The translations under genes were made by a program, and so were the position numbers. Shown here piece after piece: positions 27,896 to 45,710 of a stretch of 64,000 nt of DNA (positions within the stretch are counted from its first letter, which is position 1; every line of letters begins with the position of its first letter). The stretch lies in contig NZ_AP018365.1 of NCBI RefSeq assembly GCF_016756395.1, forward strand, positions 372,001 through 436,000, read 5' to 3'. The notes beneath the pieces are model-generated. The model had not been told where the DNA came from. It made no database searches and saw nothing but the letters and a program-made list of their open reading frames with translations. Source of the stretch: Streptomyces sp. SN-593 (GTDB taxonomy: Bacteria; Actinomycetota; Actinomycetes; Streptomycetales; Streptomycetaceae).

Positions 27896-28064
27896 CTAGG
27901 GCCTGTCCGGCGGATCGTGCCGGTCGAGCTCGCGGCGTCCGGTGCCGTACATCGCAAGGCGGAGAAACATCCTCGTACCGGGTCGTACATGGATGATTCG
28001 ACAACGCAGGGAGGTGCGGTGCCGGGCGCCGCGAGCCCGGCAGGATCCGCCGGACAGGGCCTAG
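27896..28064. mobile_element. MITE-like element with 21-bp terminal inverted repeats
   Basis: About 169 bp without coding capacity, bounded by CTAGGGCCTGTCCGGCGGAT(C) at 27896-27916 and its inverted copy at 28044-28064 (20 of 21 bases complementary). The CTA(G) at both ends fits a short target duplication. GGGCCTGTCCGG ends are, from memory, typical of IS5-family elements and their MITE derivatives in streptomycetes. The right end overlaps the stop codon (28061-28063) of the ComB-like gene. Confidence 0.82.
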
Positions 28065-28882
28065 TCGGCAACCGGGACCGGCGGCGCGGTGAAGACCCGG
28101 CCGCTCGGATCGCCGGGCAGGCGGGTCGGCACCACGCCGCTGACGTCGACCTGGAGCGCGAGGGCCACGTCGTCGTCGAAGCCCGCCGCGACCAGTTCGC
28201 GGGCCGAGACGCAGTCGGCCAGGACGGCGGGCCCGGGCGAGCGGGCGGCCCCGGCGGCGACCTGCGCCTCGGGCGAGAGGGTGCGGCCCTCCTGGGCGAG
28301 CCGGTCGCAGATCACGCCCGCGCCGATCCAGTCCTCCAGCGAGGGGCGCATGCCCTCGACGTGCGGCTGGGTGGAACTCCAGTGCTCGCCGCACGCGACC
28401 ACCGTCACGCGCCGTGCCACCTGCTCGTCGAGGAGCCGGGCGACGGCCCGCGCGCAGGCGGTCGCGTTGCGCAGCCCGCCGACCAGCAGCGCGGGGGCCG
28501 CGGCGGCGGCGCCGGCGGCCGCGGCGCCGTTGAGCGAGGTGAACAGCACGCGCTGCCCCGGCTCCGCGTGCAGCAGGCTCTGCGGGGAGAGCGAGACCTG
28601 GCCGGGCGGGACCCGGCGCCGTTTGCTCAGCGGCCGGGCTCCCATGCTGTCCGCGGCGGCCTGCAACCCGCCCATGGCGTCGATCTCGGCGCCGCTGTAG
28701 ACGTGGCAGGTGAAGTCGCGCGAGACCGCGACGTCCAGCGTGGTGGAGAACGACAGCACGTCCACCACGACCACCGCGTCCCCCCGCTCGGCCGCCAGCC
28801 GGGCGCCCAACGGCCCCCACTCGACGTGGACGTGCTGATCCGGCCAGGGATCGAAGGAAGACGGGGCACCAACGTCGGTCAT
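28061..28882 (-). CDS. 2-phosphosulfolactate phosphatase family protein (ComB-like)
   Basis: 273 aa, the usual length for the ComB family, which hydrolyses 2-phosphosulfolactate to sulfolactate in coenzyme M synthesis; many bacterial members have unknown substrates. Family cues are AVVVVDVLSFSTTLDVAVSR near residue 38 and GQRVLFTSLNGAAAAGAAAA about residue 115, with GGLRNATACARAV after it. ATG at 28882. It is the last of a ten-gene minus-strand operon, 59 bases after the PEP-barrel gene. The TAG stop lies inside the terminal repeat of the MITE, so the natural C-terminus may have been altered by the insertion. Confidence 0.85.
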   Translation of the reverse strand: MTDVGAPSSFDPWPDQHVHVEWGPLGARLAAERGDAVVVVDVLSFSTTLDVAVSRDFTCHVYSGAEIDAMGGLQAAADSMGARPLSKRRRVPPGQVSLSPQSLLHAEPGQRVLFTSLNGAAAAGAAAAAPALLVGGLRNATACARAVARLLDEQVARRVTVVACGEHWSSTQPHVEGMRPSLEDWIGAGVICDRLAQEGRTLSPEAQVAAGAARSPGPAVLADCVSARELVAAGFDDDVALALQVDVSGVVPTRLPGDPSGRVFTAPPVPVAD

Positions 28883-28941
28883 GGACTCGGCATCCTCAAC
28901 TGCGGAAGGGGGGCGTGCGCAGGGCACCGGGCCCGCTGAGC

Positions 28942-29865
28942 CTAGGGGGTGGCCGTGACCGGTCGGGTGTTCTCGGCCACCGTCAGCGCGGCCTGGCGTT
29001 CGGCCAGGTCACGGTCCTGGGCCCGGGAGATCTGGCGGCGGGTGTACACCTTGGTGCGCTGCACGAAGTCCAGGTCCGGCAGGTCGGCCGCCGGAATCCC
29101 GTGCAGCTCCGGCAGGTCGGAGTAGTGCACCGAGACGTAGGGGACGCCGGCCGCCTCCGCCCGTTCCAGGACCGGACGGCCGAGGTTGCCGGCCACGCCC
29201 CACTCCGCCGACCCGTCGACGGCCTCCCCCAGGACCTCGACCGCCCGCCACACGCTCGGGTGCAGCTTCATGTCCTGGTCCTGGCGGGAGGTGCCGGTCA
29301 GCAGGGACGACAGGTCGTTGAGCCCGAGCATCAGGTTGGACGCGCCCATGGACACGAACTTCGCGGCGTCCAGCAGGGCCGACGGGATCTCGATCATCGA
29401 CCCGAAGCGGTTCGGCCACCCGACCCGCTCCAGGACGTCGGTGGCGAAGCCGAGGTCGGCGGCGTCGCGCACGAACGGCATGAGCACGTGGAGGTGGGGG
29501 TGGTCGGCGGCCACCTCGGCGAGCACCCGCAGTTCCGTCTCGAACGCCTCGGGGAGTTCCAGCGCGCGGCGCAGCCCGCGGCGGCCCTTCATGAAGTCCG
29601 CCTCGTGGTAGATCCGGTCGACGCCGTCGAGGGTGTTCGCCTCCTGGGTGGTGAACTCCGACGTCCGGTACCACAGCGGACGGTCGCCGCACGCCGCGGC
29701 CACCGCGCGCAGGTAGTCCGCCAGCGCGGTGCGGGCCTCGGGCCGGGTGATGAACTGCCCGCGGTGGCGCAGCACGTACTCGCTGCGGATGAGCCCCACG
29801 GCGTCGAACAGCTCCGCGACCGCCGGGGGCGGGATCTCGCCACTGAGGGTGAGGCGCTGGCGCAT
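28942..29865 (-). CDS. Stand-alone PEP-utilising-enzyme C-terminal barrel
   Basis: 307 aa, matching only the PEP-binding TIM barrel of PEP synthase/PPDK/enzyme I. Matching segments are AVGLIRSEYVLRHRG (family GLxRtEf), LWYRTSEFTTQEANTLDG (vRtsDfktNEyanl), LHVLMPFVRD, FGSMIEIPSALLDAAKFV and LMLGLNDLSSL (igtNDLtq). The phosphohistidine and ATP-grasp domains are absent. The catalytic Cys expected near the end (GMCGE) is replaced in WGVAGNLGRP. It may bind PEP or another enolpyruvate or phospho-acid and act as an aldolase or transferase; this is inference. ATG at 29865 with GGAGGACG upstream. Confidence 0.78.
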   Translation of the reverse strand: MRQRLTLSGEIPPPAVAELFDAVGLIRSEYVLRHRGQFITRPEARTALADYLRAVAAACGDRPLWYRTSEFTTQEANTLDGVDRIYHEADFMKGRRGLRRALELPEAFETELRVLAEVAADHPHLHVLMPFVRDAADLGFATDVLERVGWPNRFGSMIEIPSALLDAAKFVSMGASNLMLGLNDLSSLLTGTSRQDQDMKLHPSVWRAVEVLGEAVDGSAEWGVAGNLGRPVLERAEAAGVPYVSVHYSDLPELHGIPAADLPDLDFVQRTKVYTRRQISRAQDRDLAERQAALTVAENTRPVTATP

Positions 29866-29894
29866 GGTCGTCCTCCAAGCGGTAGGGGTCCTGC

Positions 29895-30563
29895 TCAGTG
29901 GTGGTAGAAGTAGGCGTCGCCGACCGGGGTCCACTCCAGGGCGGCGAAGAAGCGGTCGGAGCCCGATCCCGGTTCCAGCAGCGCGGCGGCGCCGGCGCCG
30001 CCGGCCACGGCCCGCACGCAGGCGCGGGCGACCCCGGTCCGGCGCCGTGCCGGGTCGCTGACGACGGAGCACACCAGTCGGCGGGCACCGGTGGCACCGA
30101 GCGGCGCCATCAACTGCTGGGCGCTGGCGCAGCCGGCGAGTTCGGTGCCCTGCCCCCGTCCGGCGTGCCGCCAGTCGGCGGCCGAGCGGGCGGAGGGCGG
30201 CAGCGGTGTCAGCCCGGCCGCCGTCCACAGGCCGGTCATCCGCTCCCAGCACGGACGGTCCGGCGTCTGCGTCCACACGCCTTGCGGGGGCGCCTCGGCG
30301 CCGGGCCCGCCCCAGACCGCCAGCCGGACCGGCTGCGGGGCGCGCCGCGCCGGGACCGGCAGGGGCGCGCCGAGGCTGAGCAGCCGGGTGCCGGTGAACA
30401 GCAGGCTGCCGACCCACGCCGCGCCGGCGGCGCCGAGCAGGTCGGGCCACACCAGCAGCGAGCGCTGGTGGGACTGGATGCCCGGCAGGCCGTGCAGCCA
30501 GCAGCCGGGGGGTGCGGCAGCCGGCGCCGGCACCGGCGGGCGGGAGACATGCGCACCGGGCAT
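29895..30563 (-). CDS. GNAT-like protein of the biosynthetic operon
   Basis: 222 aa, not confidently recognised. The C-terminal 75 residues resemble the acetyl-CoA-binding end of GNAT acetyltransferases: RRLVCSVVSDPARRRTGVAR (RRxGvAr loop) and FFAALEWTPVGDAYFYHH. The N-terminal part is Pro/Ala/Trp-rich (WLHGLPGIQSHQRSLLVWPD) without a known motif. ATG at 30563, two bases after the stop of the diiron gene, with GGGGGAG upstream. An acyl transfer step is possible but unproven. Confidence 0.5.
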   Translation of the reverse strand: MPGAHVSRPPVPAPAAAPPGCWLHGLPGIQSHQRSLLVWPDLLGAAGAAWVGSLLFTGTRLLSLGAPLPVPARRAPQPVRLAVWGGPGAEAPPQGVWTQTPDRPCWERMTGLWTAAGLTPLPPSARSAADWRHAGRGQGTELAGCASAQQLMAPLGATGARRLVCSVVSDPARRRTGVARACVRAVAGGAGAAALLEPGSGSDRFFAALEWTPVGDAYFYHH

Positions 30564-30565
30564 GG

Positions 30566-31747
30566 TCACTCCCCCAGCAGCGCGAAGATCTGCCGCTCGT
30601 CGAGCGCGGCGTACTGTTCCTCGGACAGCAGGCCGAGTTCCGCCAGCAGCGCGCCGGCGCGCTTCCTGGCCGCCTCGCCCGCCGCCGCGAGTCCGCCGGC
30701 GGGGTGGTGGCGGTCCAGGAGGTGCCGCGAGTCCTTCAGGTGCATCGTCTCGTCGCGGCAGACGTAGTGGAAGGCGGTGGCCGTGCGGGTGTCGCCGCGT
30801 CGGCGCGCCTCGCGCTCCAGGGCGCGCATCGGGCCGATGATGCCGAGTTCGCCGAAGAGGGTGATCTGGGTCCAGGCGTCCCAGCCGGCCATGGCCCCCC
30901 GCACCCGTATCCCGATCATGCTGCACGCGTAGCGGTACGGGTCGGTGCCGTCCTCGGCGAGCAGGGCGTGGCCGATCGCGGCGTGCCGGGCCTCGTCCCA
31001 GGCGAGCCGGGCGAGGTGGCGCAGGACTTCCAGCGGGGCCTCCTCCACCAGGTCGAACAGCGCGAGGGCGAAGGTCTCCAGGGCGTCGATCTCGTCGCGG
31101 TTGATCCGCAGCAGCTCCACGCGGTCGTCGTCGTAGGCGGACCCGGAGGACGTCCAGTCGTCGGCCCTGCGGTAGTCGCGGGTGTGCTCGAAGAGCCGGA
31201 AGCGGGCGTCGCGCGCGCCCATGGCCGGCCGCCCGACCCGGAGAGCCGATCCGGCCGCGGGGGGTGGGGCGGGGGTGTCGCCGTAGGTGTCGGTGAGCCA
31301 GCCGAAGGCGTCCCGCAGGTCGGCCAAGGCCCGGCGGCGGACGCGCTCGGTGGGGCCGTCGAGCAGCGGGTCGAAGCCGGCGGCCGCGAAGCGGTCGGCC
31401 AGCGGGCCGCACCAGCGGTGGAGCAGCGCGGGCGGACGGTCCGCGGGCGGCAGGGCCAGGTCGGCGGCGAGCCGGTCGGCCAGCGGCTCCGGGAGGGTGC
31501 GGTCCGGGGCGGAGCCCAGTTCCGCGAGCCGCTCCTCGATCGCCGCGGCCACCTCCGTCAGGGTGAACAGGGCCTCGCCGAGCGCGAGTTTGACCTCGAA
31601 GTCCGGCAGGTCGAGGATGCTCGCCGCGACGATCCGGGCGGTGGCCCACACCTCGCGGCCCAGCCGCCGCAGCGCGGCGAGTCCGGCGTCCGGATCGGTG
31701 TCCGGAAGGGGCGCGAACCGCGGCGGCCAGGGAAGCTGCGGTGCCAT
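30566..31747 (-). CDS. Ferritin-like diiron protein (DUF455-like)
   Basis: 393 aa, all-helical. EALFTLTEVAAAIEERLAEL and INRDEIDALETFALALFDLV contribute Glu ligands. LARLAWDEARHAAIGHALLA contains an ExxH (EARH) and FHYVCRDETMHLKDSRHLLD a second (ETMH), the carboxylate/His set of a diiron ferritin-like centre. Such proteins oxidise amines, thiols or C-H bonds with O2. In this operon it is the best candidate oxygenase. The ATG at 31747 shares one base with the stop of the PLP-enzyme gene (TGATG). Confidence 0.8.
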   Translation of the reverse strand: MAPQLPWPPRFAPLPDTDPDAGLAALRRLGREVWATARIVAASILDLPDFEVKLALGEALFTLTEVAAAIEERLAELGSAPDRTLPEPLADRLAADLALPPADRPPALLHRWCGPLADRFAAAGFDPLLDGPTERVRRRALADLRDAFGWLTDTYGDTPAPPPAAGSALRVGRPAMGARDARFRLFEHTRDYRRADDWTSSGSAYDDDRVELLRINRDEIDALETFALALFDLVEEAPLEVLRHLARLAWDEARHAAIGHALLAEDGTDPYRYACSMIGIRVRGAMAGWDAWTQITLFGELGIIGPMRALEREARRRGDTRTATAFHYVCRDETMHLKDSRHLLDRHHPAGGLAAAGEAARKRAGALLAELGLLSEEQYAALDERQIFALLGE

Positions 31748-33126
31748 CAGCCGATCACCTCCCGGGCCGCCTCGGCCAGGTGGCCGGCGGCCCGCTCGAC
31801 GTCCTCGGGCGGTTCGATGCCGACGCTCACCCGCGTGAAGCACTCGCCCAGACCGGTGTTGAGGGTGTCGCGCCCGTACGCCCGGCAGGTGGTGCGGGTC
31901 CAGCCGAAGCCGGCCCTCACCCCGGGGGCGCCCGTGCGCCGCGCCCAGTCGGCGACGATCGCGCGGTGCGCCTCCTCGTGGTCGCCGCCGCGGCCCTCCG
32001 GCAGGCGGACGAAGACCATGCAGCCGGACGCGCCGGCGAGCACCGCCCGGGCGGTCAGGTCGTCCCGGCCCGCCGCGCCGCTGGTGGCGTCGGTGACGAG
32101 CAGGTCGGGCGCCAGGCGGGAGAGGGTGCCGGCGAACCGCTCCCGGCGGGCGGCGTGGATCGCCAGGCGGCGCCGGCACGCGGCGACCTCGGCCGGGCGC
32201 AGGCGGTGCAGGGCCCGGCCCTGGAGCTGCTGGCCGGTCCTGCGCGCGCACAGCCTGGCCTGCGCGGCCCACTCGTCCCAGCCGTAGACCACGCCGGCGC
32301 CGGCCTGGCGGGTGAGGTACTTCATGCCGGACTCGACGTAGAGCACGTGCGGACCGGTCAGCAGCGCCGACGGCCGGACGCCGTGGCCGAGCGCCGAGCA
32401 GTCGAGCACGGTGCGCACGCCGGCGTCCCGCAGCGGTTCGAGGACCGGGACGTCGCAGCGCGGGCCGTTCAGGGCGAGTTCGGCCAGCGCGAGGGCCGGG
32501 CGGTGCTCGCCCACGGCGTCCGCCACGGCCTTCGGGTCGCGCAGGTCCGCCGCGACGATCCGCACCCCCCAGGGCGCGTAGAGCCCGTCGAGCAGGTCCC
32601 GGCTCTCGAAGTACATCCGGTCGTGGACCAGCATGCGGTCGCCGGGCCGGAGCCCGCTCGCCCGGACGGCGACGTCGAGCGCCGACATGCCGGCGTTGAC
32701 GAGCACCGCCTGCTCGCTGCCGAACGCCTCGGCGGCGACCCGCTCGGCCCTGCGCCGCCGGCCGTTCTCGTAGCTGTCCCAGTACGACCGGTCGCTGCGG
32801 CCCTCCTCCTGGGCCGCGGCGTCGTCCCAGAACTCGCGCATGGAGTGGTAGGCCGCCGCGGGTTCGAAGGACGCGTCGAGGTGCGCGGCGAGCCGGTCGC
32901 GGGCGGCCCGGTAGCCGTCGAGCGCGTCGCCGAAGGGGGCGCCGCCCGCGGCCAGCGCGGCGAGTCCGGGCGGCGCGGGCAGCCGTTCGTGCCGGTACTC
33001 CGCCAGCAGGCCGGCGGCGAGGCCCGCCAGGTGCGCGGCGCTGTCGGTGGCGGCGGGGTCGGTGGCGGCGGGGTCCGTGGCGGCGGGGTCCGTGGCGGCG
33101 CTGGCACCGCCGCGTGCGGCGCTCAC
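31747..33126 (-). CDS. PLP-dependent enzyme, Cys/Met-metabolism (gamma-synthase) fold
   Basis: 459 aa. Fold-type I features: AFGSEQAVLVNAGMSALDVA (phosphate-binding turn), VRTVLDCSALGHG (Asp contacting the pyridine N), and LYVESGMKYLTRQAGAGVVY with the Schiff-base Lys. These resemble cystathionine gamma-synthase/methionine gamma-lyase relatives, but the sequence is divergent. The N-terminus has four ATDPA-type repeats from a 15-base tandem repeat (about 33042-33105). GTG at 33126 overlaps the stop of the methyltransferase-like gene. It may perform beta- or gamma-replacement on an amino acid in the pathway product. Confidence 0.78.
   Translation of the reverse strand: MSAARGGASAATDPAATDPAATDPAATDSAAHLAGLAAGLLAEYRHERLPAPPGLAALAAGGAPFGDALDGYRAARDRLAAHLDASFEPAAAYHSMREFWDDAAAQEEGRSDRSYWDSYENGRRRRAERVAAEAFGSEQAVLVNAGMSALDVAVRASGLRPGDRMLVHDRMYFESRDLLDGLYAPWGVRIVAADLRDPKAVADAVGEHRPALALAELALNGPRCDVPVLEPLRDAGVRTVLDCSALGHGVRPSALLTGPHVLYVESGMKYLTRQAGAGVVYGWDEWAAQARLCARRTGQQLQGRALHRLRPAEVAACRRRLAIHAARRERFAGTLSRLAPDLLVTDATSGAAGRDDLTARAVLAGASGCMVFVRLPEGRGGDHEEAHRAIVADWARRTGAPGVRAGFGWTRTTCRAYGRDTLNTGLGECFTRVSVGIEPPEDVERAAGHLAEAAREVIG
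33042..33105 (-). repeat. 15-base tandem repeat at the 5' end of a PLP-enzyme gene
   Basis: Four in-frame copies of a 15-base unit (plus-strand form GTCGGTGGCGGCGGG or GTCCGTGGCGGCGGG) encode ATDPA repeats. The first and second pairs differ by one base each. Confidence 0.75.
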
Positions 33127-33908
33127 CGGTCGACCACGAAGAGCGTGTAGGGGAAGGGCATGCCGGGCACGTCCCGCCGGACCTGCTCGGCGGTGACGGT
33201 GCCGTAGTGGCCGAGCAGGTCGCGCCACCCGTCGACGGTGCGGTGCTGCGGGACGCAGGGGACCTCGAAGGTGTTGAGGCAGCGGTTGAAGAACTCGTCC
33301 ACGTACAGGTGGAAGTCCTCGTCGTTGTCGGCGTCGAGGCAGTTCTCCACCACGACCCAGCGCTCGGCGTCGAGTTCGGCCGCCGCGTCGAGCAGCGCGA
33401 CCACGTCGGGTTCGTGGTGCAGCACCGTGCTCATCAGCAGGCAGGCGTACGGCCCGGCGGGCAGTGCCAGGTCCGGCGGCACGTCGTGCACCGGGAAGGG
33501 CAGTTGCGACCAGTCGGTCTCGTAGGCGTAGGAGCGTTCGCAGCCGGTCAGCGCCTGCGACGCCAGGCCGTGGCGGAGCAGGGCGCGGCCGACGGTGAAG
33601 TCGCCGCCGAGCACGTCCAGCAGCGGACCGTGCAGGTGCTCGCCGAGCCAGCGGGCGAGGAAGTCGGAGCGCTCCTCGGCGAAGACCCGGTTCCACTCCG
33701 CCCGTACCCCACTGTCGGACAGCACGGTCGCGGTCGGGCCGAAGCCCTCCCGGTCCAGCAGGAGCCGTACCAGCCGGGCCGTTCCGGCCGGGTCCGGTAC
33801 GTCGAATCCGCCGCGGCGCCAGATGTCGGTCATGCGCTCCTCGAAGACGTCGAGGAGTTTCTCGCTCGGCCGTGGCTCCGAGGACTCCTGAATGTCGATC
33901 GCGGTCAT
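33123..33908 (-). CDS. Methyltransferase-like protein of the biosynthetic operon
   Basis: 261 aa. The size, the DLALPAGPYACLLMSTVLHH segment (the usual loop after SAM motif II with a His pair) and DAERWVVVENCLDADND suggest a class I SAM-dependent O- or N-methyltransferase with a helical N-terminal dimerisation region (PDPAGTARLVRLLLDREGFG). A clean GxGxG motif I is missing: LLDVLGGDFTVGRALLRHGL occupies its place, so SAM binding is uncertain. ATG at 33908, 6 bases downstream of the neighbouring gene; its stop overlaps the GTG of the PLP enzyme. Confidence 0.62.
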   Translation of the reverse strand: MTAIDIQESSEPRPSEKLLDVFEERMTDIWRRGGFDVPDPAGTARLVRLLLDREGFGPTATVLSDSGVRAEWNRVFAEERSDFLARWLGEHLHGPLLDVLGGDFTVGRALLRHGLASQALTGCERSYAYETDWSQLPFPVHDVPPDLALPAGPYACLLMSTVLHHEPDVVALLDAAAELDAERWVVVENCLDADNDEDFHLYVDEFFNRCLNTFEVPCVPQHRTVDGWRDLLGHYGTVTAEQVRRDVPGMPFPYTLFVVDR

Positions 33909-33914
33909 CGGTCG

Positions 33915-34727
33915 TCAGGCCGTGAGAGCCAGGCGGGAGGGCTGCGCGATGGCCGCGACGACCTCGTCGACCAGCCGGTCGGCCAGTCCGTCGTCGAGGT
34001 CGCGGTCGATCTCGTGCAGGAAGCCCAGCACGTAGTCGACGGTGCGGCGGTCGTAGGGCCAGCCGAACTTGGTACACAGGGTCAGCGCGGCGAAGTCCTC
34101 CGGGTGCGCGATGCCGGACGCCCACTCGCCGTACTCGCGCATGGTGCGGGACAGCATCGCGTCGGACTCCCTGGTGAAGCCGCCGGTCTCGGCGAACACC
34201 CGCGCGGCGAACTCCTCGGCGAACTCCGGGTCGGCGAAGCGGGCCAGGCTGGCGCGCAGCGCGGTCTCGCGGGGCGAGTCGGCGACGTGGCCGCCGACCC
34301 GCAGGTCGAGGGCGCACTCCACCGAGGTGTGCCCGAAGTCGCGTTCGAGGTGCGCGCGGGTGTCGTGGTCGCGGGGGTCCCGCTCGGCCAGGCCGGAGCG
34401 CAGGGCGGTGTCGATGAAGCGGTCCATCCGGTCGACCGCCAGGTGCATCTCCTGGTAGGCCCAGCCGATGCGCTGCGGGGTGGGGGTGAGCGTCGGACCG
34501 TAGTGGATGACCCAGTCGGTGATGATGTGGCCCTCGATCAGCTTGGCGGCGCGGCCGGCGGGCTGCTCCTCCTCAGGCCGGTCGACGGTCGCCCTCAGCC
34601 GGCCGTACGCCCACTCGTGGCAGTGCGCCAGGTTGGGGAAGAGGGCCAGCGCGGCGTCGTCCTCCCATACTTCGGAGCCGGCGGTGGCCGCGTGCTCCAC
34701 GACGGCGAGGTGACCGATGATGTCCAT
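33915..34727 (-). CDS. Zn-dependent phospholipase-C-like protein, copy 2
   Basis: 270 aa. Metal-site-like motifs: GHLAVVEHA at the N-terminus, NLAHCHEWAYGRL, IEGHIITDWVIHYGP and RIGWAYQEMH. The arrangement H ... HxW ... HxxxDxxxH ... E recalls the Zn_dep_PLPC family. The protein is a distant relative of the gene at 36808-37644 in the same operon (GHL, CH[DE]W[AG]Y, D.V[IV]HYG and GWAY are shared). No signal peptide is visible, so a cytoplasmic role is likely. ATG at 34727 with GAAAGGACG upstream; 79 bases from the preceding gene. Confidence 0.55.
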   Translation of the reverse strand: MDIIGHLAVVEHAATAGSEVWEDDAALALFPNLAHCHEWAYGRLRATVDRPEEEQPAGRAAKLIEGHIITDWVIHYGPTLTPTPQRIGWAYQEMHLAVDRMDRFIDTALRSGLAERDPRDHDTRAHLERDFGHTSVECALDLRVGGHVADSPRETALRASLARFADPEFAEEFAARVFAETGGFTRESDAMLSRTMREYGEWASGIAHPEDFAALTLCTKFGWPYDRRTVDYVLGFLHEIDRDLDDGLADRLVDEVVAAIAQPSRLALTA

Positions 34728-34806
34728 GCGACGTCCTTTCGGTGGTCCGGGTGCGAATCGTGTGGTGTGCGCCGCAGCCGATCGGTGCTTCCTGCCGGAG
34801 GGGCCT

Positions 34807-35655
34807 TCAGGACAGGCGCGGCTCGGGGGGCTCGGGCGAGAGCGGTTCGGTGCCGGCGTGGCGCCGCCAGGCGTCTCGCAGCACCCCGACGTGCCGGTCG
34901 AGCGCTTCGGGCGCAAGCTGCGGGGTGAAGCGGACCTCGCGGTACCAGTCGCCGAAGGAGGGCTCCAGCAGCGGCAGGTAGCGCAGCCGCCACTTCCAGC
35001 GGCTGATGGACAGGCCGTGGTGGAAGATCAGCCCGTCGGCGAGGCTGTCGGCGGCCCAGCAGAGTTTGAGGTAGGCCTCGTCCGGGCGGCCGACCCGCAG
35101 GCTCGCGGGGATGCCCTTGGTCGCGTCCCGGACGTTGACCAGGGCGCAGTCGCGCTTGAACGCCTGGTAGGTGCGCCACGGTACGGCCGAGCGCACCTCC
35201 CGCAGCCGCTCGGCGCCGTGTGCGGGCACGCCGCAGCGCAGCGCGTGGAAGAGGTCGGTGCCGACCTTGACGTCCAGTCCGCCGACCCGGGTGAAGTCGG
35301 CCTCGACCGCGTCGGCGTCGCGGATGCCGTCGCCCAGGGCCCGGCAGGCGGCCAGCACGCGGTCCTCGGGCCACACCTCGATGTCGATCTCCTCGCCGCC
35401 GGCGTCGAGGTAGCTCATGGCGTAGCCGTTGGCCAGTTGTTCGGTGCGCCGCTCCGGGTGCCGCCTCTCGGCGAAGGACCGGAAGCGGTCGTCGTACGGG
35501 GTGAGGAGGACCAGGTCGACGTCCCCGCCGCTGGTCTCGAAGGGCAGCACGCTGGACCCGGTGACCAGGAGGACCTCCCCGTCGCGGCAGCCGGTGCGCT
35601 CGGCGAACCGGCGCCCCTGGGCGAGGGCGGCCTCCAGGCGGTCGGTGACGGTCAT
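34807..35655 (-). CDS. Nucleotidyltransferase-domain protein
   Basis: 282 aa. Residues 25-100 show the minimal nucleotidyltransferase core LLVTGSSVLPFETSGGDVDL (GS motif, then DxD) and a third acidic residue in EEIDIEVWPED. The C-terminal 180 residues are helical with AYLKLCWAADSLADGLIFHH, like the accessory domain of aminoglycoside-type adenylyltransferases. It would transfer NMP from an NTP to a small molecule or peptide. ATG at 35655 overlaps the end of the cysteine-synthase-like gene. A second, unrelated-looking nucleotidyltransferase is encoded at 44384 in the facing operon. Confidence 0.8.
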   Translation of the reverse strand: MTVTDRLEAALAQGRRFAERTGCRDGEVLLVTGSSVLPFETSGGDVDLVLLTPYDDRFRSFAERRHPERRTEQLANGYAMSYLDAGGEEIDIEVWPEDRVLAACRALGDGIRDADAVEADFTRVGGLDVKVGTDLFHALRCGVPAHGAERLREVRSAVPWRTYQAFKRDCALVNVRDATKGIPASLRVGRPDEAYLKLCWAADSLADGLIFHHGLSISRWKWRLRYLPLLEPSFGDWYREVRFTPQLAPEALDRHVGVLRDAWRRHAGTEPLSPEPPEPRLS

Positions 35656-36692: not shown

Positions 36693-36728
36693 TCGCTTCC
36701 CGCGGGGTCGGAATCGTGGCGAGGGTCT

Positions 36729-36800
36729 GGGGCGGGGTGGGGAGGGAGGTCCGGGTCGGGGTGGGAGCCCGGATGGGGAACGGGGCGGGGGCCGGTGGGG
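36729..36800 (+). other. G-tract cluster between operon genes
   Basis: Ten or more runs of three to five G in 72 bases on the plus strand (C-runs in the mRNA), between the genes ending at 36808 and starting at 36692. It could form a G-quadruplex in the template strand. Confidence 0.5.
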
Positions 36801-36807
36801 CGCACGC

Positions 36808-38994: not shown

Positions 38995-39942
38995 ATGAAC
39001 GCGATCGAAGTCAGACGATTGAGTCGTCGTTACGGCTCCGGCGCGCAGGTGCACACGGCACTCGACGACATCGAACTGGCCGTGCCGGAAGGCCAGATCA
39101 TCGGACTGCTGGGAGCCAACGGCGCGGGAAAGACCACCCTCATCAAAATCCTCTCGACGCTGTTGCTGCCGAGCTCCGGCAGCGCGTCGGTGGCGGGACT
39201 GGACGTGGTCTCCGCCGCGCGCGGGGTCCGCCGGCTGGTCTCGGTGGTGTACGGCGGGGACCGCGGCTTCTACGGGCGGCTCACCGGGCGGGCCAACCTG
39301 CGGTTCTTCGCGATGCTCCAGGGCCTGTCCCGGCACCGGCTGGCCGCCAGGACCGACGCCGTGCTGGCGGAGGTCGGCATGCTGGAGGCCGCCGACCAGC
39401 GGGTGGAGACCTACTCCCGCGGCATGCGGCAGCGCCTGCACATCGCCGTCGGGATGATCGCCGAGCCACGGGTGCTGCTGCTGGACGAACCGTCCATCGG
39501 GCTCGACCCGGTCGAGGCGCAGCGATTACGCGACGCCATCGGGGCGCTGCGCGGCTCCGGCGTCACCGTGCTGATCACCACTCACCAGCTCCTCGACATC
39601 GAGAGCCTGGCGGACCGCGTGGTCATGCTGCACCGCGGCCGCATCGTCCACGACCTGTCGCTGGACCAGTTCGCCGGCCGCTCCGGCCACGTCGCCACCG
39701 TGCGGGTCACCGGGCGGGGCCGCCCGCCCACCCCGGGGGACCAGGGGCCCGGCGCCCCGCAGGTCGCCGAGGTCACCGTGTCCGGCGGGCAGTGGACGGC
39801 CGACGTGACCATCGCGCGGTGGGGGCCGGAGACCTTCCGGTGGCTGAGCGGGCAACTCGGCCCGGACACGCTGATCGACATGCGGGTGCGCTCCTCCCGC
39901 CTGGAGGACGTCTACCGGCAACTGGCCGGTGACCTGCGGTGA
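38995..39942 (+). CDS. ABC transporter ATP-binding protein (exporter)
   Basis: 315 aa. Walker A GANGAGKT at residues 40-47, signature YSRGMRQRLHIAVGM near 140, Walker B VLLLDEPSIGLDP, and the His loop in VLITTHQLLD. The C-terminal 80 residues are the extension typical of drug or peptide exporters of the ABC-2 (DrrA/NatA) type. Residue 178 (ARQ-type stretch AQRLRDAI) uses a TTA codon at 39526-39528, which in streptomycetes requires the bldA tRNA. ATG at 38995 after GGAGAG. Two ABC-2 permease genes follow with overlaps, so this is the energising part of a heterodimeric exporter. Confidence 0.92.
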   Translation: MNAIEVRRLSRRYGSGAQVHTALDDIELAVPEGQIIGLLGANGAGKTTLIKILSTLLLPSSGSASVAGLDVVSAARGVRRLVSVVYGGDRGFYGRLTGRANLRFFAMLQGLSRHRLAARTDAVLAEVGMLEAADQRVETYSRGMRQRLHIAVGMIAEPRVLLLDEPSIGLDPVEAQRLRDAIGALRGSGVTVLITTHQLLDIESLADRVVMLHRGRIVHDLSLDQFAGRSGHVATVRVTGRGRPPTPGDQGPGAPQVAEVTVSGGQWTADVTIARWGPETFRWLSGQLGPDTLIDMRVRSSRLEDVYRQLAGDLR

Positions 39943-40754
39943 CGGCCACCCCCGCGGCCCCCGCCGCGTCCGTGGCGCGCCGCCGCGACGGGGCCGCCGA
40001 GCTGGCGACGGTGCTGGCCACCTCCGCCCGGGTGCAGCTTGCGATGCAGCGGGCGCACCCCATGTCGATCATGCTCGGCATCGTGCAGCCCGCCGTCCTG
40101 CTCGTCATCGGGTCGTCCTCGACCCACGGCGCCGCACTCGACGGCTTCGCCCTGGCGTCCGGGCTGTCGAGCCTGTGGGGAGGCAGCATCTGGACCGCGG
40201 GCGGCATCCTGCGCCGGGAGATCGAGTACGGCACGCTGCCCCGGCTGGTCTGCTCGCCGTGGAACATCCGCTTCCTGCTGCTGGCCAAGAGCCTGGCGGC
40301 CAGCATGTTCCAGACGCTGTGCATCACCGTCACGACCGTGGGCGTGCTGGCCTGCTCCGGCCACACGATCGCCGTCCGGGCGCCCGGGGCCCTCCTGCTC
40401 GGCATCCTGGTCGCGGTGCTGTCGGCCGCCGCCCTCGGCCTTCTGCTCAGTTCCCTGTTCGTGCTGACCCGGGCCGCCGTACGCATCTCCGAGGCGCTCA
40501 GCTACCCCGTGCTCCTGCTGGGCGGCATGCTCATCCCCTCCGCCTACCTGCCCGCCTGGCTGCGGTGGCCGTCGGCCGTGGTGAGCCTGAGCTGGATCCG
40601 CCGGGTCCTGCACGGCGCGCTCACCGGCTCCACCGACCTGCCCGCCCTGGCCGCCGCGCTCGCCCTGACGGCCGGTTACGCGGCCGCCGGCTGGCTGGTC
40701 TTCGACGCGGTGCTCGACCGCGCCCGGCTGAGGGGGACCCTTGAACTTCGCTGA
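39939..40754 (+). CDS. ABC-2 type permease, first
   Basis: 271 aa with six hydrophobic helices (about 45-62, 75-90, 115-135, 150-190, 195-215, 235-255). IEYGTLPRLVCSPWNIRFLL is the usual cytoplasmic loop (typically rGTle.ll.sPv). It begins at a GTG overlapping the ATPase stop by 4 bases and ends 14 bases inside the second permease gene. With 40741-41523 it would form the membrane channel of an exporter for the pathway product or modified peptide. Confidence 0.87.
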   Translation: MTATPAAPAASVARRRDGAAELATVLATSARVQLAMQRAHPMSIMLGIVQPAVLLVIGSSSTHGAALDGFALASGLSSLWGGSIWTAGGILRREIEYGTLPRLVCSPWNIRFLLLAKSLAASMFQTLCITVTTVGVLACSGHTIAVRAPGALLLGILVAVLSAAALGLLLSSLFVLTRAAVRISEALSYPVLLLGGMLIPSAYLPAWLRWPSAVVSLSWIRRVLHGALTGSTDLPALAAALALTAGYAAAGWLVFDAVLDRARLRGTLELR

Positions 40755-41523
40755 CCTGGGTTTCCGGCTCGGCCTCGCCTGCTCCTTCGGCGGCCGCGAG
40801 TACGCGGCGGTCTACAGCCGCAAGGTGGTGCTCACCTCGGTGCTGCCGCGGGCGGTCCTCCAGGCGGTGTTCTACACCCTGCTCGGACGGCTGCTGGCCG
40901 GACCGGGCGGCACGCGGCAGGCGTTCGTCGGGGCCGTGGGCTACGCCCTGGTGACCGCGACCGTGGTGCGGCTGCCGGACGTCCTCGCCGCGGACAAGCA
41001 GGAGGGCACGGCCTTCCGGCTGCGCACCGGGGTGCTGCCGCGGCCGGTGGTCGCCGCCTGCCGGTCCTGGCCCTACCTCGCGGAGGCACTGCTGTCGGCC
41101 GCCGCCGTCGTCGCGGTCGGTTCGCTGATGGTCGGCGAGGGCTCCGTCGCACTCCAACTGCTGCGCTACGTACCGCTGTTCGTCCTGAGCACGGTCGCGC
41201 TGGCGGCCTTCGGGCTGGCCGGGGCGGCGATGTCGGTGGGCCGGCGCTCCGACGTCCTGGTCGGCAACCTGCTGGCCGCCCTCCTGCTGGCGGGCTGCCA
41301 GATCGTCACGGCCAGGCCGATCGGCTGGCTCCGGGCGGTCGGCGAGGTGCTGCCGCTGCGGCACGCGCTGGAGGGGGTCCGGGCCGGGATCGACGGCCGG
41401 AGCCCCTGGCCGCAGGCCGGCGCCGAGGCGCTGGTCGGCGCGGGCTGGTTCGCCGTGGCCGCGGTCGCCCTCAAGGTGCAGGGGCACCGGGCCGCTCGGG
41501 AAGGGACGGACGACCATGACTGA
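40741..41523 (+). CDS. ABC-2 type permease, second
   Basis: 260 aa, about six helices. LAADKQEGTAFRLRTGVLPR is the loop equivalent to that of the first permease (E-x-GT). The start is the TTG at 40741, preceded by GAGGGGGAC and inside the end of the first permease gene. The end overlaps the TldD gene by 8 bases, so the exporter and protease genes are translationally coupled. Confidence 0.83.
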   Translation: MNFADLGFRLGLACSFGGREYAAVYSRKVVLTSVLPRAVLQAVFYTLLGRLLAGPGGTRQAFVGAVGYALVTATVVRLPDVLAADKQEGTAFRLRTGVLPRPVVAACRSWPYLAEALLSAAAVVAVGSLMVGEGSVALQLLRYVPLFVLSTVALAAFGLAGAAMSVGRRSDVLVGNLLAALLLAGCQIVTARPIGWLRAVGEVLPLRHALEGVRAGIDGRSPWPQAGAEALVGAGWFAVAAVALKVQGHRAAREGTDDHD

Positions 41524-42991
41524 CCTCCACCGCGCAGCGGGCGCCGGCGGGCTCGCGGACGCCCTGGGCGATCCGGCGCTGGCACGGCGCGTCCTGGACC
41601 GCGCGCTGGCGGGCCGGGCGGCCTGGGCCGAGGTGTACCACGAGGTGCGCACCGACGGCTCGGTCACGATGAACGACGGCGAGCGCACCAGCCGTTCGGC
41701 CAGCCTCACCGAGGGCGTCGGGCTGCGCGCCGTGGGACCGGCGGGCACCTGCAACGTCTACGGTCCCGCGCCCGACCCGGCCGCGCTGCTCCGCCTCGCG
41801 GAACGGGCCGCGGACGCCTACGACGCCCTGGCCGGCGGCGGCGCCCCGGGCGAACCGCCGACGGCGCCCGCCGGGCGCCCCGAGTCCGCCGCCCGCCTGT
41901 GGGCCGACGCCAACCCGGCCGACGCCAACCCGTGGGCCGACGCCCGCTGGGACGAGACGCTCGACCTGGGACGGCTGGAGGCGCATGCCGCGGCGGCACT
42001 CGCCGCCGCGACCGAGACGGACACGGACGGCGTACGGGTCCGGGCCACGACCTGGTCGCGTTCCGTGGTGGTCGTCAACTCGCTGGACGGGCGGGCGCGG
42101 TGGACCACGCGCGGCACCCGGTTCGCCGTGGACGCCTTCGCCCGGCGCGGCGCCGACCGGCGCAGGGGCCGCGCCAACCACTGCTCCGACCTGCCGGTCG
42201 GCGCGATCGACGCGGCGCCGGCGCAGGACGCGGGACGGCGGGCCGCGGCCCAGGCGCACCGCGTCCTGGGCACCTCGGCCGCCCCGCCGGCCGCGGTGCC
42301 CGTCGTCCTCGCGCCGGCCGCCGCGGCGCTGCTGGTCCACGAACTGCTCGGCCACCCCTGCGAGGCCGACATGGTGGCGGGCGGCACCTCGCCCCTGCGC
42401 CCCTCAGGACCAGCGCCGGCGCTCGACTCCTGCGTGACCGTGCTGGACGGCTGCCCGCCGCAGGGCGGCTGGGGCAGGGCCGACCGGGACGACGAGGGGA
42501 CGCCCAACGCGGAGACGGTGGTCATCGACCGCGGTGTGCCGAGCGGGGTCCTCACCGACCGCGCGAGTGCCGAGGCCCACGGCTGGGCGCTGACCGGCAA
42601 CGGCAGACGGCAGTCCTACGCGCATCCGGTACTCCCCCGGGTGAGCGGCACCCGTCTCGCGGCCGGCACGTCGTCCGCGGACGCGCTGGTGGCCGGGCTC
42701 GGCGACGGGCTGTGGGTCCTGGCCGCCCAGGGCGGATCGGTCAACGCCCGGACCGGGATGCTCACCATCGACGTCAAGGAGGCGCGGCTCGTGCGCGGCG
42801 GCGTCCCGGGCGAGCGGGTCTCCGCGACTGCGGTCGCCGCGCACGCCCGCGACGTGCTGCGCGGCATCCGGGCCGTCGCCGACGACCCGCTGACCTGCCC
42901 GATGATCTGCGGCAAGCACGGCCAGTGGATACCGGTGGCCGCGCAGGCGCCGTCCGTCCTGGTCGAACGCATGCAGACGGTGGGGGGCTGA
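41516..42991 (+). CDS. TldD-type metalloprotease subunit
   Basis: 491 aa. The zinc site HELLGH is at residues 275-280, and the later Cys ligand is C465 in MICGKHGQWIPVAAQAPS, exactly as in TldD (HExxxH plus a distal Cys). The N-terminal domain (about 20-220) with DGERTSRSASLTEGVGLRAV is the usual half-barrel. TldD works as a heterodimer with TldE/PmbA in a closed chamber that only admits unfolded peptides; in E. coli it matures microcin B17 and degrades CcdA. An Ala/Asp/Asn-rich insert (DANPADANPWADARW) lies near residue 130. ATG at 41516. Confidence 0.92.
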   Translation: MTDLHRAAGAGGLADALGDPALARRVLDRALAGRAAWAEVYHEVRTDGSVTMNDGERTSRSASLTEGVGLRAVGPAGTCNVYGPAPDPAALLRLAERAADAYDALAGGGAPGEPPTAPAGRPESAARLWADANPADANPWADARWDETLDLGRLEAHAAAALAAATETDTDGVRVRATTWSRSVVVVNSLDGRARWTTRGTRFAVDAFARRGADRRRGRANHCSDLPVGAIDAAPAQDAGRRAAAQAHRVLGTSAAPPAAVPVVLAPAAAALLVHELLGHPCEADMVAGGTSPLRPSGPAPALDSCVTVLDGCPPQGGWGRADRDDEGTPNAETVVIDRGVPSGVLTDRASAEAHGWALTGNGRRQSYAHPVLPRVSGTRLAAGTSSADALVAGLGDGLWVLAAQGGSVNARTGMLTIDVKEARLVRGGVPGERVSATAVAAHARDVLRGIRAVADDPLTCPMICGKHGQWIPVAAQAPSVLVERMQTVGG

Positions 42992-42992
42992 C

Positions 42993-44399
42993 GTGCGGGA
43001 CCCCGGCACGGTGGACCCGGCCCCGCTCCAGGACGCGCTGCCCGGCGAGCGCCTGGAACTCGTCACGCGCACCGCACTGCGCCGCCGCGTGCGGATGACC
43101 GACGGCGCGGTCGACTCGGTGGGCGACGCGACGACCACCACGACCATGGTGCGCAGCGTGGCGGACGGCTCCGTCGGCTGCGCGACGACCAGCGGCTTGA
43201 GCGCGACGGCCGTCGCCGAGGCGGTGCGGGTCGCGCGCCGGCTGCGCGCGCCGGGCGTCCTCGCGCCCGCCGACGACCGGACGCCGCCGGCGCGGGACCC
43301 GGCCGCGGAGCGCGCGGCGCAGCAGGCGTGGGAGCGGGTGGTGTCCTGCGGCACCGCCGAATCGATCGCCCGGCTGCGGGAGTTGTCGGCCCGCGTGCAC
43401 GGGGTGCGGCGCGCCCAGGCCACCTGGGACCAGGTCGCGCAGTTCGTGACGCTCGCCGACTCCGCCGGCCGGGTCGTCTCCTACCGGCACCCGGAGGTCA
43501 CCCTCGCCCTCACGGTGGTGGCCGCGGGCCGGACCGGCCGCTCCACCGGCACCGGTGGCCGCACCGCCGCCGGCCCCGACGGGCTGGACGCGGCGGGCAT
43601 CGCCGCCGAGGCCGTCGCGGAGGCAGCCGGCCGGATGCCCTCCGCCACCCGGCCGGAAGGGGCCCCGCCCCGGCGGCTCGACGCCGTGATCGCCCCGCGC
43701 GCCGCCTCCCGGCTGCTCGCCCAGATCGCCGCCGTCTTCTACGGCGACCGCGCCGACCTCGACCGCGCCGGAGCGTACGCCCCGGGCAGCCGTGTCCTCG
43801 CCGACGGGGTCGGCCTGGTCGACGACGCGGGCGCGCCCAGCGGGCTGGGCACCGTGCCGTGCGACGACGAGGGGACCCTGACCGCACGCACCGTGCTGGT
43901 GGACGACGGACGGGCCGGCGCCCTGCTGCACGACCGCAGTTCGCCCTCGCCGGGCTCCCGCAGCAGCGGCAACGGCTGGATGGTGCCCTTCGGATCGGGG
44001 GTGGGCAGCGGCATCGCGGTGGCCGGCACCCTGCTCGCGCTGCGCGGCCCGGTCCGCCCGCTCACCGACCTGCTGGGCGGGAGCGGCCCGGTGCTCTACG
44101 TCACCCGGATCGACGACGGCAGCGGCAGGGCGCTGGACGCGGCGCACGACTCGGTCCGCATGGCGCTGTCCGGCTGGCTGGTCCGGGACGGTGCGCCGTA
44201 CCTCCCCGTCGCCGGTGTGTCGGTCGGCATGCGCCTGCGCGACTTCCTCGCCCGGATCGAGGGCACCTCCGACGTCCGCGAGGACTACCGCGTCGCCGCC
44301 GGCTCCACCCTGCGCAAGGGGCCGGCCGTGCACTCCACCCACATCAGCCTGCGCGACCTGCCCGTCACCTTCCAGGAGGACTCATGGCAACGCCAGTGA
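42993..44399 (+). CDS. TldE/PmbA-type protease subunit
   Basis: 468 aa. Same fold as TldD but without HExxxH, as in all TldE/PmbA subunits. VRMTDGAVDSVGDATTTTTM, the AVIAPRAASRLLAQIAAVFY segment and ALSGWLVRDGAPYLPVAGVS mark the family. It would pair with the product of the previous gene, which ends one base before the GTG at 42993. The last 16 bases overlap the next gene. A chamber protease beside an exporter and two tiny peptides points to leader-peptide removal. Confidence 0.87.
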   Translation: MRDPGTVDPAPLQDALPGERLELVTRTALRRRVRMTDGAVDSVGDATTTTTMVRSVADGSVGCATTSGLSATAVAEAVRVARRLRAPGVLAPADDRTPPARDPAAERAAQQAWERVVSCGTAESIARLRELSARVHGVRRAQATWDQVAQFVTLADSAGRVVSYRHPEVTLALTVVAAGRTGRSTGTGGRTAAGPDGLDAAGIAAEAVAEAAGRMPSATRPEGAPPRRLDAVIAPRAASRLLAQIAAVFYGDRADLDRAGAYAPGSRVLADGVGLVDDAGAPSGLGTVPCDDEGTLTARTVLVDDGRAGALLHDRSSPSPGSRSSGNGWMVPFGSGVGSGIAVAGTLLALRGPVRPLTDLLGGSGPVLYVTRIDDGSGRALDAAHDSVRMALSGWLVRDGAPYLPVAGVSVGMRLRDFLARIEGTSDVREDYRVAAGSTLRKGPAVHSTHISLRDLPVTFQEDSWQRQ

Positions 44400-45469
44400 T
44401 CCCCGGGCCCGCCGGCCCGATCGCCGACGACCTGCGCGCGCTGGCCGGCCGCGCGCTGGAGCGGTACGCGCAGGGCGAGGTGCGGATCGGGTTCGCGATG
44501 GTGTCGGGGTCGCGGGCCATGGGCCTGGGCCACGCCCTGTCCGACCTCGACCTGTACGTCGTCCGCACGGACGACGCGCCGGCCCGCGCCGGGACGTTCG
44601 CCCTCGAAGGGCAGACGATCCAGGTCACCCCGCTGGACACCGCGCGGATACGGCGCCTGGCCGCCCAGGCGGACGGGTACCGCGTCACCGCGCGGGACCG
44701 CTCCCAGCAGGACTTCACGCAGTCGGACTACAAGGTGCTGCTGCGCCTGGCCAACGGGGCGCTGCTGTACGCCGACGCCGAGCACCGCGAGCTGTTCGAG
44801 CGGCTGGACCGCGAGACGGTCCGCAGGCTGGTCGTCATGCGCCACGCCACGTACGCCGTGGAGTTGCAGGAGGACGTGCGCGGCACCGTGGAGTCCGGGG
44901 ACCTGATGACCGCCATGGTCTCCTCCCAGCGCACCCTGATGCATGCCGTGGAGTGTGCTCTGGGCGGGGTGGGCGAGGTCTACGACCACGAGAAGGTCGC
45001 GCTGCGCCGGCTGGCCCGGCACCCCGGCACCGCCCACCTGCTGCCGGAGGTCTGGCGCCTGCTGCACCCCGGCGTGGCGGTGGACGCCCCCGCCGGGGAG
45101 CTGGCCGGGATCGCCCGGCGGCGCGCCCTGCTCGCCTCGCACCTGGTCGGCTACGCGGTGCTGGACGGGTGGGACGGCCCGGCGGCGCGGGTCCCGCCCT
45201 TCACGCCGGGCCAACGCGGCCCGGTCCGCCGCTACGACTACGGCTTGCTGCGCTTCGCCAACGGCATCGCCCTCACCGGCGAGGACAAGGGCGCCAGGGT
45301 GAGCGAGGCGATGGCCCGGCTGTGGCTCGCCCTGGACGGGCGGCCCTTCGACGAGATCGCCTCGTCGCCCGCGCTCCGGCCGCTCGACGCCGCACCGGCG
45401 GTGCTGGCGGGCGCCCTGGAGAAGCTGCGCGCGACGGGCGCCGTCGAACAGCCGCCGCCCGGCGCCTGA
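44384..45469 (+). CDS. Nucleotidyltransferase with possible PqqD-like C-terminal domain
   Basis: 361 aa. Residues 30-110 form a minimal nucleotidyltransferase: GFAMVSGSRAMGLGHALSDL then DLYVVR (GS and DxD), and QTIQVTPLDTARIRRL with a third acidic residue. The middle is helical. The last 75 residues, RFANGIALTGEDKGARVSEA and MARLWLALDGRPFDEIASSP and AGALEKLRATGAVE, have the look of a PqqD-like winged helix (RiPP recognition element). That likeness is by eye only. ATG at 44384 with CAGGAGGA upstream, overlapping the TldE gene. It precedes the two peptide genes by 67 bases. Confidence 0.75.
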   Translation: MATPVIPGPAGPIADDLRALAGRALERYAQGEVRIGFAMVSGSRAMGLGHALSDLDLYVVRTDDAPARAGTFALEGQTIQVTPLDTARIRRLAAQADGYRVTARDRSQQDFTQSDYKVLLRLANGALLYADAEHRELFERLDRETVRRLVVMRHATYAVELQEDVRGTVESGDLMTAMVSSQRTLMHAVECALGGVGEVYDHEKVALRRLARHPGTAHLLPEVWRLLHPGVAVDAPAGELAGIARRRALLASHLVGYAVLDGWDGPAARVPPFTPGQRGPVRRYDYGLLRFANGIALTGEDKGARVSEAMARLWLALDGRPFDEIASSPALRPLDAAPAVLAGALEKLRATGAVEQPPPGA

Positions 45470-45536
45470 GCGCGCCGGAAGGTCTCCCGCGCCGAGGCGG
45501 CGCGGGACCCGTCGTCACCGAGAGGAGGTGGGCGTC

Positions 45537-45593
45537 ATGGAGGACTTCGACATCGAGCAGGACGAGGACTTCGCGGGCGAGTCCAGCCTGTAG
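45537..45593 (+). CDS. 18-residue acidic peptide 1, candidate RiPP precursor
   Basis: The peptide reads MEDFDIEQDEDFAGESSL, then TAG. A near-consensus ribosome-binding site GAGAGGAGGTG (45520-45530) lies 6 bases before the ATG. The same site, start and 18-codon length recur 117 bases later in the second copy, with substitutions that keep length and character (D/E, G/A, S/A). Conservation of frame, site and length in a duplicated pair argues for real translation. The highly acidic N-terminal part could be a recognition region and the C-terminal FAGESSL the modified part; this split is a guess. No similar peptide is known to me. Confidence 0.72.
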   Translation: MEDFDIEQDEDFAGESSL

Positions 45594-45653
45594 GGCGGCC
45601 CCCGCACGCGAGGTCGCGCCGCGACCGACGAGCCACGAGAGGAGGTGCCGGCC

Positions 45654-45710
45654 ATGGAGGACTTCGACATCGAGCAGGAAGAGGACTTCGCCGCCGAGGC
45701 GAGCCTGTAA
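45654..45710 (+). CDS. 18-residue acidic peptide 2, candidate RiPP precursor
   Basis: The peptide reads MEDFDIEQEEDFAAEASL, then TAA. It has the same GAGAGGAGGTG site (45637-45647) and ATG spacing as copy 1. It differs at four residues from copy 1 (D9E, G14A, S16A and none in the first eight). The first eight residues and the final SL are identical. Between the copies lie 60 bases with little similarity, so the duplication is not recent or only the functional part is conserved. It closes the operon with the exporter, TldD/TldE and nucleotidyltransferase genes. Confidence 0.72.
   Translation: MEDFDIEQEEDFAAEASL

Follow-up and report, generated by a model that had tools for sequence, protein, structure and literature searches.

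Within a 64,000-nucleotide stretch of the Streptomyces sp. SN-593 genome (the window; G000:C1:372001-436000, in whose own coordinates features are given below) lie two neighboring operons that a preliminary description had proposed as a biosynthetic locus, at 28061..45710, in which twin 18-residue peptides are modified, cut and exported. Ten open minus-strand genes run from 37644 to 28061 with intergenic gaps of -4 to 115 bp, and the plus-strand operon occupies 38995-45710 with all frames open and gaps of -16 to 67 bp, just as that description had it; the two operons, which it called facing, are divergent instead. A truncated IS4/5-family transposase (DUF4096 part only, 38015-38437) separates them. 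In gene order, the plus operon and the sequence directly behind it comprise:

38995..39942, plus: ABC ATPase, DrrA-like (Pfam/NCBIfam)
39939..40754, plus: ABC-2 permease (Pfam/NCBIfam)
40741..41523, plus: ABC-2 permease (Pfam/NCBIfam)
41516..42991, plus: TldD-like metalloprotease subunit (family match; HExxxH present as HELLGH)
42993..44399, plus: TldE-like subunit (family match; lacks HExxxH)
44384..45469, plus: nt2, nucleotidyltransferase with a C-terminal domain like a RiPP recognition element (RRE; RiPP, ribosomally synthesized and post-translationally modified peptide), by predicted fold
45537..45593, plus: peptide gene 1, 18 amino acids, MEDFDIEQDEDFAGESSL; Shine-Dalgarno sequence AGGAGGTG 6 nucleotides before the ATG
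45654..45710, plus: peptide gene 2, 18 amino acids, MEDFDIEQEEDFAAEASL; Shine-Dalgarno sequence and spacing as in peptide gene 1
45734..45761, plus: inverted repeat GCGCCCC/GGGGCGC, a possible terminator, directly 3' of peptide 2

The minus operon, again in gene order, and the gene convergent with its last member read as follows:

36808..37644, minus: unk10, His/Asp-rich, of unknown family, paralogue of unk7
35652..36692, minus: PALP, cystathionine-beta-synthase/cysteine-synthase-like (Pfam/NCBIfam, 3e-68)
34807..35655, minus: nt1, nucleotidyltransferase-like (GS..DVD and EIDIEV motifs; Pfam only at E 0.026)
33915..34727, minus: unk7, paralogue of unk10
33123..33908, minus: methyltransferase-like, with an unusual S-adenosylmethionine-motif region (weak, E 0.024)
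31747..33126, minus: Cys/Met-metabolism-type pyridoxal phosphate (PLP) enzyme (2e-10; scanned from 33123, one codon short)
30566..31747, minus: ferritin-like diiron protein (ExxH motifs and conserved Glu)
29895..30563, minus: small protein, GNAT-like in our reading of a motif, without a Pfam acetyltransferase match
28942..29865, minus: stand-alone phosphoenolpyruvate (PEP)-binding barrel, a PEP-utiliser (1e-23)
28061..28882, minus: 2-phosphosulfolactate-phosphatase (ComB)-type protein (2e-18)
26703..27827, plus: gene read as NDK-like, convergent with the comB-like gene and kept with the locus

Pfam and NCBIfam matches support the earlier naming of the PLP enzymes, PEP barrel, ABC genes, TldD and TldE, and the nucleotidyltransferase that had been named proved to be present in two copies, at 34807-35655 and 44384-45469. 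The diiron call has its basis in two conserved ExxH motifs and further invariant Glu across 22 aligned homologues, and for the methyltransferase-like call we found only the weak match listed. Although it lies outside 28061..45710, the NDK-like gene belongs to the locus on the evidence of gene order, because both actinobacterial relatives keep it next to comB-like; a Pfam NDK match appears only in the homologue at L026, at E 0.022, below the cut-off.

The two peptide genes are the last of their operon. In the genome that we take as Kitasatospora atroaurantiaca (G115), three tandem genes follow nt2 and encode peptides of 17-19 residues, MDDFDIEQDEDMAAEPSPL, VDDFDIEQDEDMAAEPSPL (GTG start) and MEDFDIEQDEDMAAETA, which have the core DFDIEQ(D/E)ED in common with those of the window. 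In all five genes (two in the window, three in G115) AGGAGGTG stands exactly six bases 5' of the start codon, and within 116 kb (the window, L026, L028 and L029) the arrangement AGGAGGTG-N6-(A/G/T)TG occurs only at these five. The genes differ from one another in start and stop codons, in length by whole codons, and by a few synonymous changes. The C-termini read SSL, ASL, SPL or TA; Cys is absent, and Ser and Thr stand only near the peptide end. A DNA pattern for the core is found twice in the window's genome, three times in G115 and in none of four same-genus genomes (two of six genomes), and a looser one is found in 1 of 394 genomes of the class, the window's own, G115 lying outside that sample. 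A third lineage seems to carry such a peptide directly behind nt2, since an nt2 homologue (P0044, 47% identical) has an out-of-frame tail, ...WTTSTSSRT..., which ATGGACGACTTCGACATCGAGCAGGAC yields when read in the +1 frame. Judged by these sequence patterns, the peptides are real conserved genes, and a short conserved precursor gene beside enzymes, a general RiPP criterion, is present. In both genomes they are last on their own strand, as far as read, and we ruled out leader-peptide attenuation because no same-strand gene follows them before the minus-strand gene at 45940-47181. That gene, which comes straight after the peptide genes but on the opposite strand, is one of three SpoIIE-type phosphatase genes in the window (the others at 18433-19668 and 20468-21859).

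In its predicted structure nt2 consists of an aminoglycoside-adenylyltransferase-like nucleotidyltransferase domain, HEPN-like helices and, at about residues 278-361, a C-terminal domain that adopts an RRE-like fold in a confident model. Structure comparison of the model places aminoglycoside adenylyltransferases as the closest whole-domain folds. No Pfam family matches nt2 above cut-offs, and the enzyme lacks the third acidic residue; nt1 is too short to hold an RRE part. Fold and topology fit an RRE, with individually weak scores. A scan of viral contigs with nt2 gave no relative.

Both operons recur in G115 in the same order and divergence, so that at the one other locus where this could be checked, in a second genus, the peptides are kept and the operons adjoin, and neither result that the preliminary description had named as refuting it was seen. 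Sixteen of the 17 genes compared are 60-78% identical to those of the window, and the GNAT-like gene 52%. Among 200 genomes of the family, here the Streptomycetaceae, the PEP barrel scores above 61 bits only in the window's genome and G115, and unk7/unk10 family members turned up in 2 of 121, always within the locus. The diiron protein reaches further: a search of 5.8 billion proteins, with 8000 candidates scored, yielded 36 clusters including its own, the named ones falling in Kitasatospora, Streptomyces, Nonomuraea and Micromonospora, and an alignment scan of 84,980 species genomes returned two loci, in Nonomuraea lactucae and an Erythrobacter metagenome-assembled genome. It has no plasmid match. 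In N. lactucae every minus-operon gene from PALP to comB-like is kept, nine of the ten, as is the NDK-like gene; the contig ends beyond PALP. In the Erythrobacter genome (L027:1-7911) homologues of the diiron, PALP and methyltransferase-like proteins sit by genes for SRPBCC, nucleotidyltransferase, fatty-acid hydroxylase, acyl carrier protein (ACP) and ketosynthase, and TldD has no match there (0 of 1). By its gene neighborhoods, this trio occurs in both peptide-linked and ACP-linked contexts. K. atroaurantiaca has extra genes, for A-domain, A-T-C and T-C proteins, PhyH, an MFS-like protein (our own reading) and a third nucleotidyltransferase, nt3, which matches nt2. A nonribosomal peptide synthetase role for the window was rejected, the A, A-T-C, T-C, PhyH and MFS-like genes having no match there. 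Searches of solved structures with nt2 and nt3 gave nothing useful.

Relatives of nt2 reveal a wider module. An alignment search matched 13 of the 121 family genomes, with near-full-length relatives in the window's genome (G000), G115 (two genes), G067, G123 and G057, and in all five of these genomes TldD and TldE adjoin the nt2-type enzyme. In G123 and G057 the gene preceding the enzyme encodes MENLDVIEVEDDIVEFESDSDNAANVANIGNIGNIGNIGNIANIGNIANIGNIANIANIANI and MEDLNVIEVDEDIVEFDSDEENAAAAANVVNVVNVVNVVNV, respectively, precursors of 62 and 41 residues with an acidic leader and a core of Asn-triplet repeats (NIG/NIA and NVV). Precursor, enzyme, TldD, TldE and three ABC genes follow in this order, forming seven-gene modules at L056:9196-15918 and L057:8855-15439, and among open reading frames of at least 120 residues in the 20 kb read, G123 and G057 share only that module. 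Its gene content gives this module the look of a separate RiPP family not yet described. In L057 the genes that come next encode enolase, a TtcA-like protein (our own reading) and PhyH, and just upstream of the precursor there, on the opposite strand, an open reading frame at L057:7906-8817 encodes a nucleotidyltransferase-like protein 25% identical to nt2 over 180 residues. In G067 (L055, G067:C76:1-15317) the RRE-like nucleotidyltransferase and TldD/E lie by DHQ-synthase-like, class III aminotransferase, dehydrogenase-like and NDK-like genes (our own reading), which by their content we read as an aminocyclitol-type cluster. Two plasmids carry further relatives whose ends are RRE-like by alignment. 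The Streptomyces durmitorensis enzyme (L059:4669-14991, NZ_CP097290.1) accompanies a PEP/pyruvate-binding protein, a P450, a thymidylate kinase and two beta-ketoacyl synthase III genes, and that of S. virginiae (L060:10633-13044, NZ_CP108865.1) is divergent from an annotated nucleoside-diphosphate kinase, among insertion sequence elements. One of the eight genomes with only partial nt2 matches, G092, showed no TldD at L058. The window's genome holds a second pair of TldD/TldE-type matches (G000:C1:1583476-1585208), presumably the general one; the pair at the locus would be the extra copy.

These observations make the precursor or scaffold role that had been suggested for the 18-mers likelier, because nt2 carries an RRE-like domain and full-size precursors lie beside its homologues in two genomes. 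We consider it moderately probable that this is a RiPP-type locus composed of an acidic leader-like peptide, an RRE-fused nucleotidyltransferase, TldD/TldE and a three-gene ABC exporter, with a leader-only 18-mer present twice. The precursor would have shrunk, in the window version, to two copies of its leader; the RRE of nt2 would dock the MEDFDIEQDED stretch, and the nucleotidyltransferase domain would activate the peptide end, either the carboxylate or a Ser/Thr near the C-terminus. The minus operon would make an unusual amino-acid or phosphorylated building block, to be attached or finished on the peptide, through the PALP and Cys/Met PLP enzymes, the diiron oxidase, the PEP barrel with the ComB-type phosphatase, nt1 and the NDK-like protein. 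TldD/TldE would free the product by trimming the peptide, and the ABC system would export it. In our reading, the 18-mers may serve as leader-only carriers: nt2 would dock them, the product of the minus operon would be built on them, and TldD/E would cut it free.

Several results weigh against this explanation. The scores in the RRE test are individually weak; NCBIfam PqqD-type models hit the G057 enzyme end at 4e-4 and 8e-4, below cut-offs, and match none of the other four enzymes scanned. When we modeled nt2, a linker and the peptide as one chain with AlphaFold (the first peptide gene of G115 is in frame with nt2), the peptide stayed disordered, with a pLDDT (predicted local distance difference test) of about 30 and no strand. 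This gives docking no support, in what is a weak test, since the alignment held 10 sequences and the linker was unnatural. A small-ORF scan of the whole 15.3-kb L055 contig, which ends 145 bp past tldE, found no convincing acidic peptide, nor did scans of parts of L059 and L060; the few acidic open reading frames listed in these scans sit inside or antisense to other genes. No TldD/E was seen beside the two plasmid relatives (none is annotated in L059). Finally, the similarity of the 18-mers to the longer G123 and G057 leaders is not significant beyond composition. The link between the two peptide branches is drawn from the homologous enzyme, its neighbors and the position of the peptide, not from peptide sequence.

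Comparison with known systems drew on scans of 16 locus proteins (ten of the minus operon, five of the plus operon, and nt2) for hallmark enzymes. Like the pearlins (ammosamides and 3-thiaglutamate, made on scaffold peptides), the locus has a small ribosomal peptide, an expected amino-acid-derived product and a putative peptide-binding domain on an enzyme, and, like the ammosamide pathway, it has a TldD/E-like protease. It differs in that a nucleotidyltransferase stands in place of the ligase: no Pfam family for a PEARL, the LanB-like aminoacyl-tRNA ligase, was found among the 16 proteins. With microcin B17 and other linear azole peptides the locus has TldD/E and, by prediction, RRE-type recognition in common, whereas its peptides lack Cys and hold Ser/Thr only at the end, and none of the 16 proteins is a YcaO cyclodehydratase. 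In published work, the pearlin TglA measures 50 residues (PMC9016710), against 17-19 here, the ammosamide TldD/E-like Amm12/13 removes a C-terminal dipeptide from the scaffold (PMC12715798), and access to the microcin B17 enzyme was modeled to need at least 15 residues (PMC10885120), a length that the 17-19-mers would just meet.

The strongest rival is a peptide-nucleotide of the microcin C kind, in which nt2 would add a nucleotide to the peptide, TldD/E trim the N-terminus in the producer, the ABC system export the conjugate and the minus operon decorate the nucleotide or phosphate; we think it unlikely, if worth keeping in view. The microcin C precursor ends in a C-terminal Asn, which the locus peptides, closing in Leu or Ala, do not match. 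The two systems agree in a very short precursor, an RRE-like domain joined to nucleotidyl transfer, and an exporter. According to three studies, a minimal mcc cluster needs a precursor, a nucleotidyltransferase and an exporter, the N. vaccinii precursor being 21 residues long (PMC9239234), precursors elsewhere are mostly of 7 residues (PMC6495379), and TldD/E matures the product of the Yersinia member (PMC10885120). The G123/G057 module of precursor, RRE-nucleotidyltransferase, TldD/E and exporter fits this account, as do the NDK-like or nucleotide-kinase genes, annotated in the S. virginiae and S. durmitorensis loci and, by our own reading with weak or no family matches, seen in the window, G115 and G067. 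By contrast, MccB is ThiF-like and ThiF matches none of the 16 proteins, nt2 having instead an aminoglycoside-adenylyltransferase fold with its RRE-like part at the C-terminus; the missing third acidic residue of nt2 also tells against nucleotide addition, and a ten-gene minus operon far exceeds the needs of nucleotide decoration. Among the proteins scanned, the locus lacks the hallmark enzymes of the pearlin, microcin C and azole-peptide systems, and it plausibly works like the first two.

Improbable, in our judgment, is that the peptides are no substrates at all. TldD/E acts as an N-deacetylase in lincosamide pathways, and the locus could likewise make a small molecule, with TldD/E as N-deacetylase, nt2 conferring self-resistance in the manner of aminoglycoside adenylyltransferases and the 18-mers as, for example, a regulator that binds nt2. 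The nearest folds of nt2, the aminocyclitol-type genes (our own reading) beside the same enzyme in G067 and the plasmid relatives with no peptide seen all suit this account. The tandem peptide genes, each behind a perfect ribosome site, at the operon end and upstream of no same-strand gene, do not, nor do the RRE-like domain on nt2 and the clear repeat-core precursors beside its homologues in G123 and G057. We hold it to be very doubtful that the cell exports the modified 18-mer itself instead of a small molecule cleaved from it: an ABC exporter and TldD/E adjoin the peptides and relatives have longer precursors, but the conserved residues make up the leader-like part, and the tail is a few variable residues. 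Least credible is an amino-group carrier of the LysW type, in which a side-chain carboxylate of the peptide would bear the amino acid: although the small acidic peptides lie by amino-acid-forming enzymes, the LysW pathway pairs an ATP-grasp ligase with an acidic carrier of about 55 residues, and the locus has no such ligase among the 16 proteins and peptides of 17-19 residues without Cys and with a variable C-terminus.

The minus-operon enzymes hint at the chemistry of the building block. By sequence family, PALP fits a beta-replacement and the Cys/Met PLP enzyme a transsulfuration-type step. The grouping of ComB-type phosphatase, PEP-binding barrel and beta-replacement PLP enzyme recalls the coenzyme M/sulfolactate pathway, from which the locus differs in its peptide-linked context, and none of the locus proteins scanned matches the ComA family. 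In alignments with PEP synthase and enzyme I, the PEP barrel retains R27, R67, E159, N183, D184 and R194, which we take to be the PEP-site residues of those enzymes. Where we assume the catalytic Cys usually stands (printed alignments stop short of this motif), it reads GVAGN in the window and N. lactucae and GLAGN in G115, with Ala in all three. Because the barrel comes without a phosphohistidine domain and is neighbored by the ComB-type phosphatase, a reasonable guess from sequence is a reaction that adds at C3 of PEP, retains the phosphate and is followed by dephosphorylation. Against solved structures, the diiron protein gave only a weak symerythrin match (E 0.006), and unk7/unk10, the methyltransferase-like and the NDK-like proteins gave nothing useful. 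The minus-operon enzymes may also make a small molecule that is joined or released only at the peptide stage. The peptide module of G123 and G057 comes without them in the 20 kb read, and three of them are ACP-linked in the Erythrobacter genome. It is the RRE-like nucleotidyltransferase, in company with TldD/E, the ABC exporter and an acidic peptide, that defines the locus, and not the set of enzymes in the minus operon. Farther out, window positions 48692-54063 hold three esterase-type genes, two of them with bacterial Ig-like domains.

To our knowledge, the locus peptides, if our explanation is true, are the smallest scaffold peptides. An RRE fused to a pol-beta-type nucleotidyltransferase was not found described in searches of the open-licence PMC literature, including PMC7470986. 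The daptide paper names nucleotidyltransferases only as ancillary genes (PMC10036551), and the main text of a survey of 1,158 Pfam domains among RRE proteins does not name the fusion (PMC12710340); an unnamed earlier listing, for example in supplementary tables, is possible. We propose, tentatively, a new class of peptide-guided natural products with the RRE-fused pol-beta-type nucleotidyltransferase, TldD/E and a three-gene ABC exporter as its hallmark. It would have two or more branches, one with full Asn-triplet-core precursors (G123, G057) and one with leader-only, PEARL-free small-molecule scaffolds of 17-19 residues (the window, K. atroaurantiaca), and the whole combination looks like a new use of a small ribosomal peptide in natural-product making. 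Open reading frames of 18 codons lie below the size at which gene finders usually call genes. Because such frames usually go uncalled and nt2 has no Pfam match above cut-offs, keyword-based genome mining would easily miss the search handle that an RRE-nucleotidyltransferase beside TldD/E would provide, and aminoglycoside-type nucleotidyltransferases, an unexpected family, would join the enzymes that peptide leaders are known to guide.

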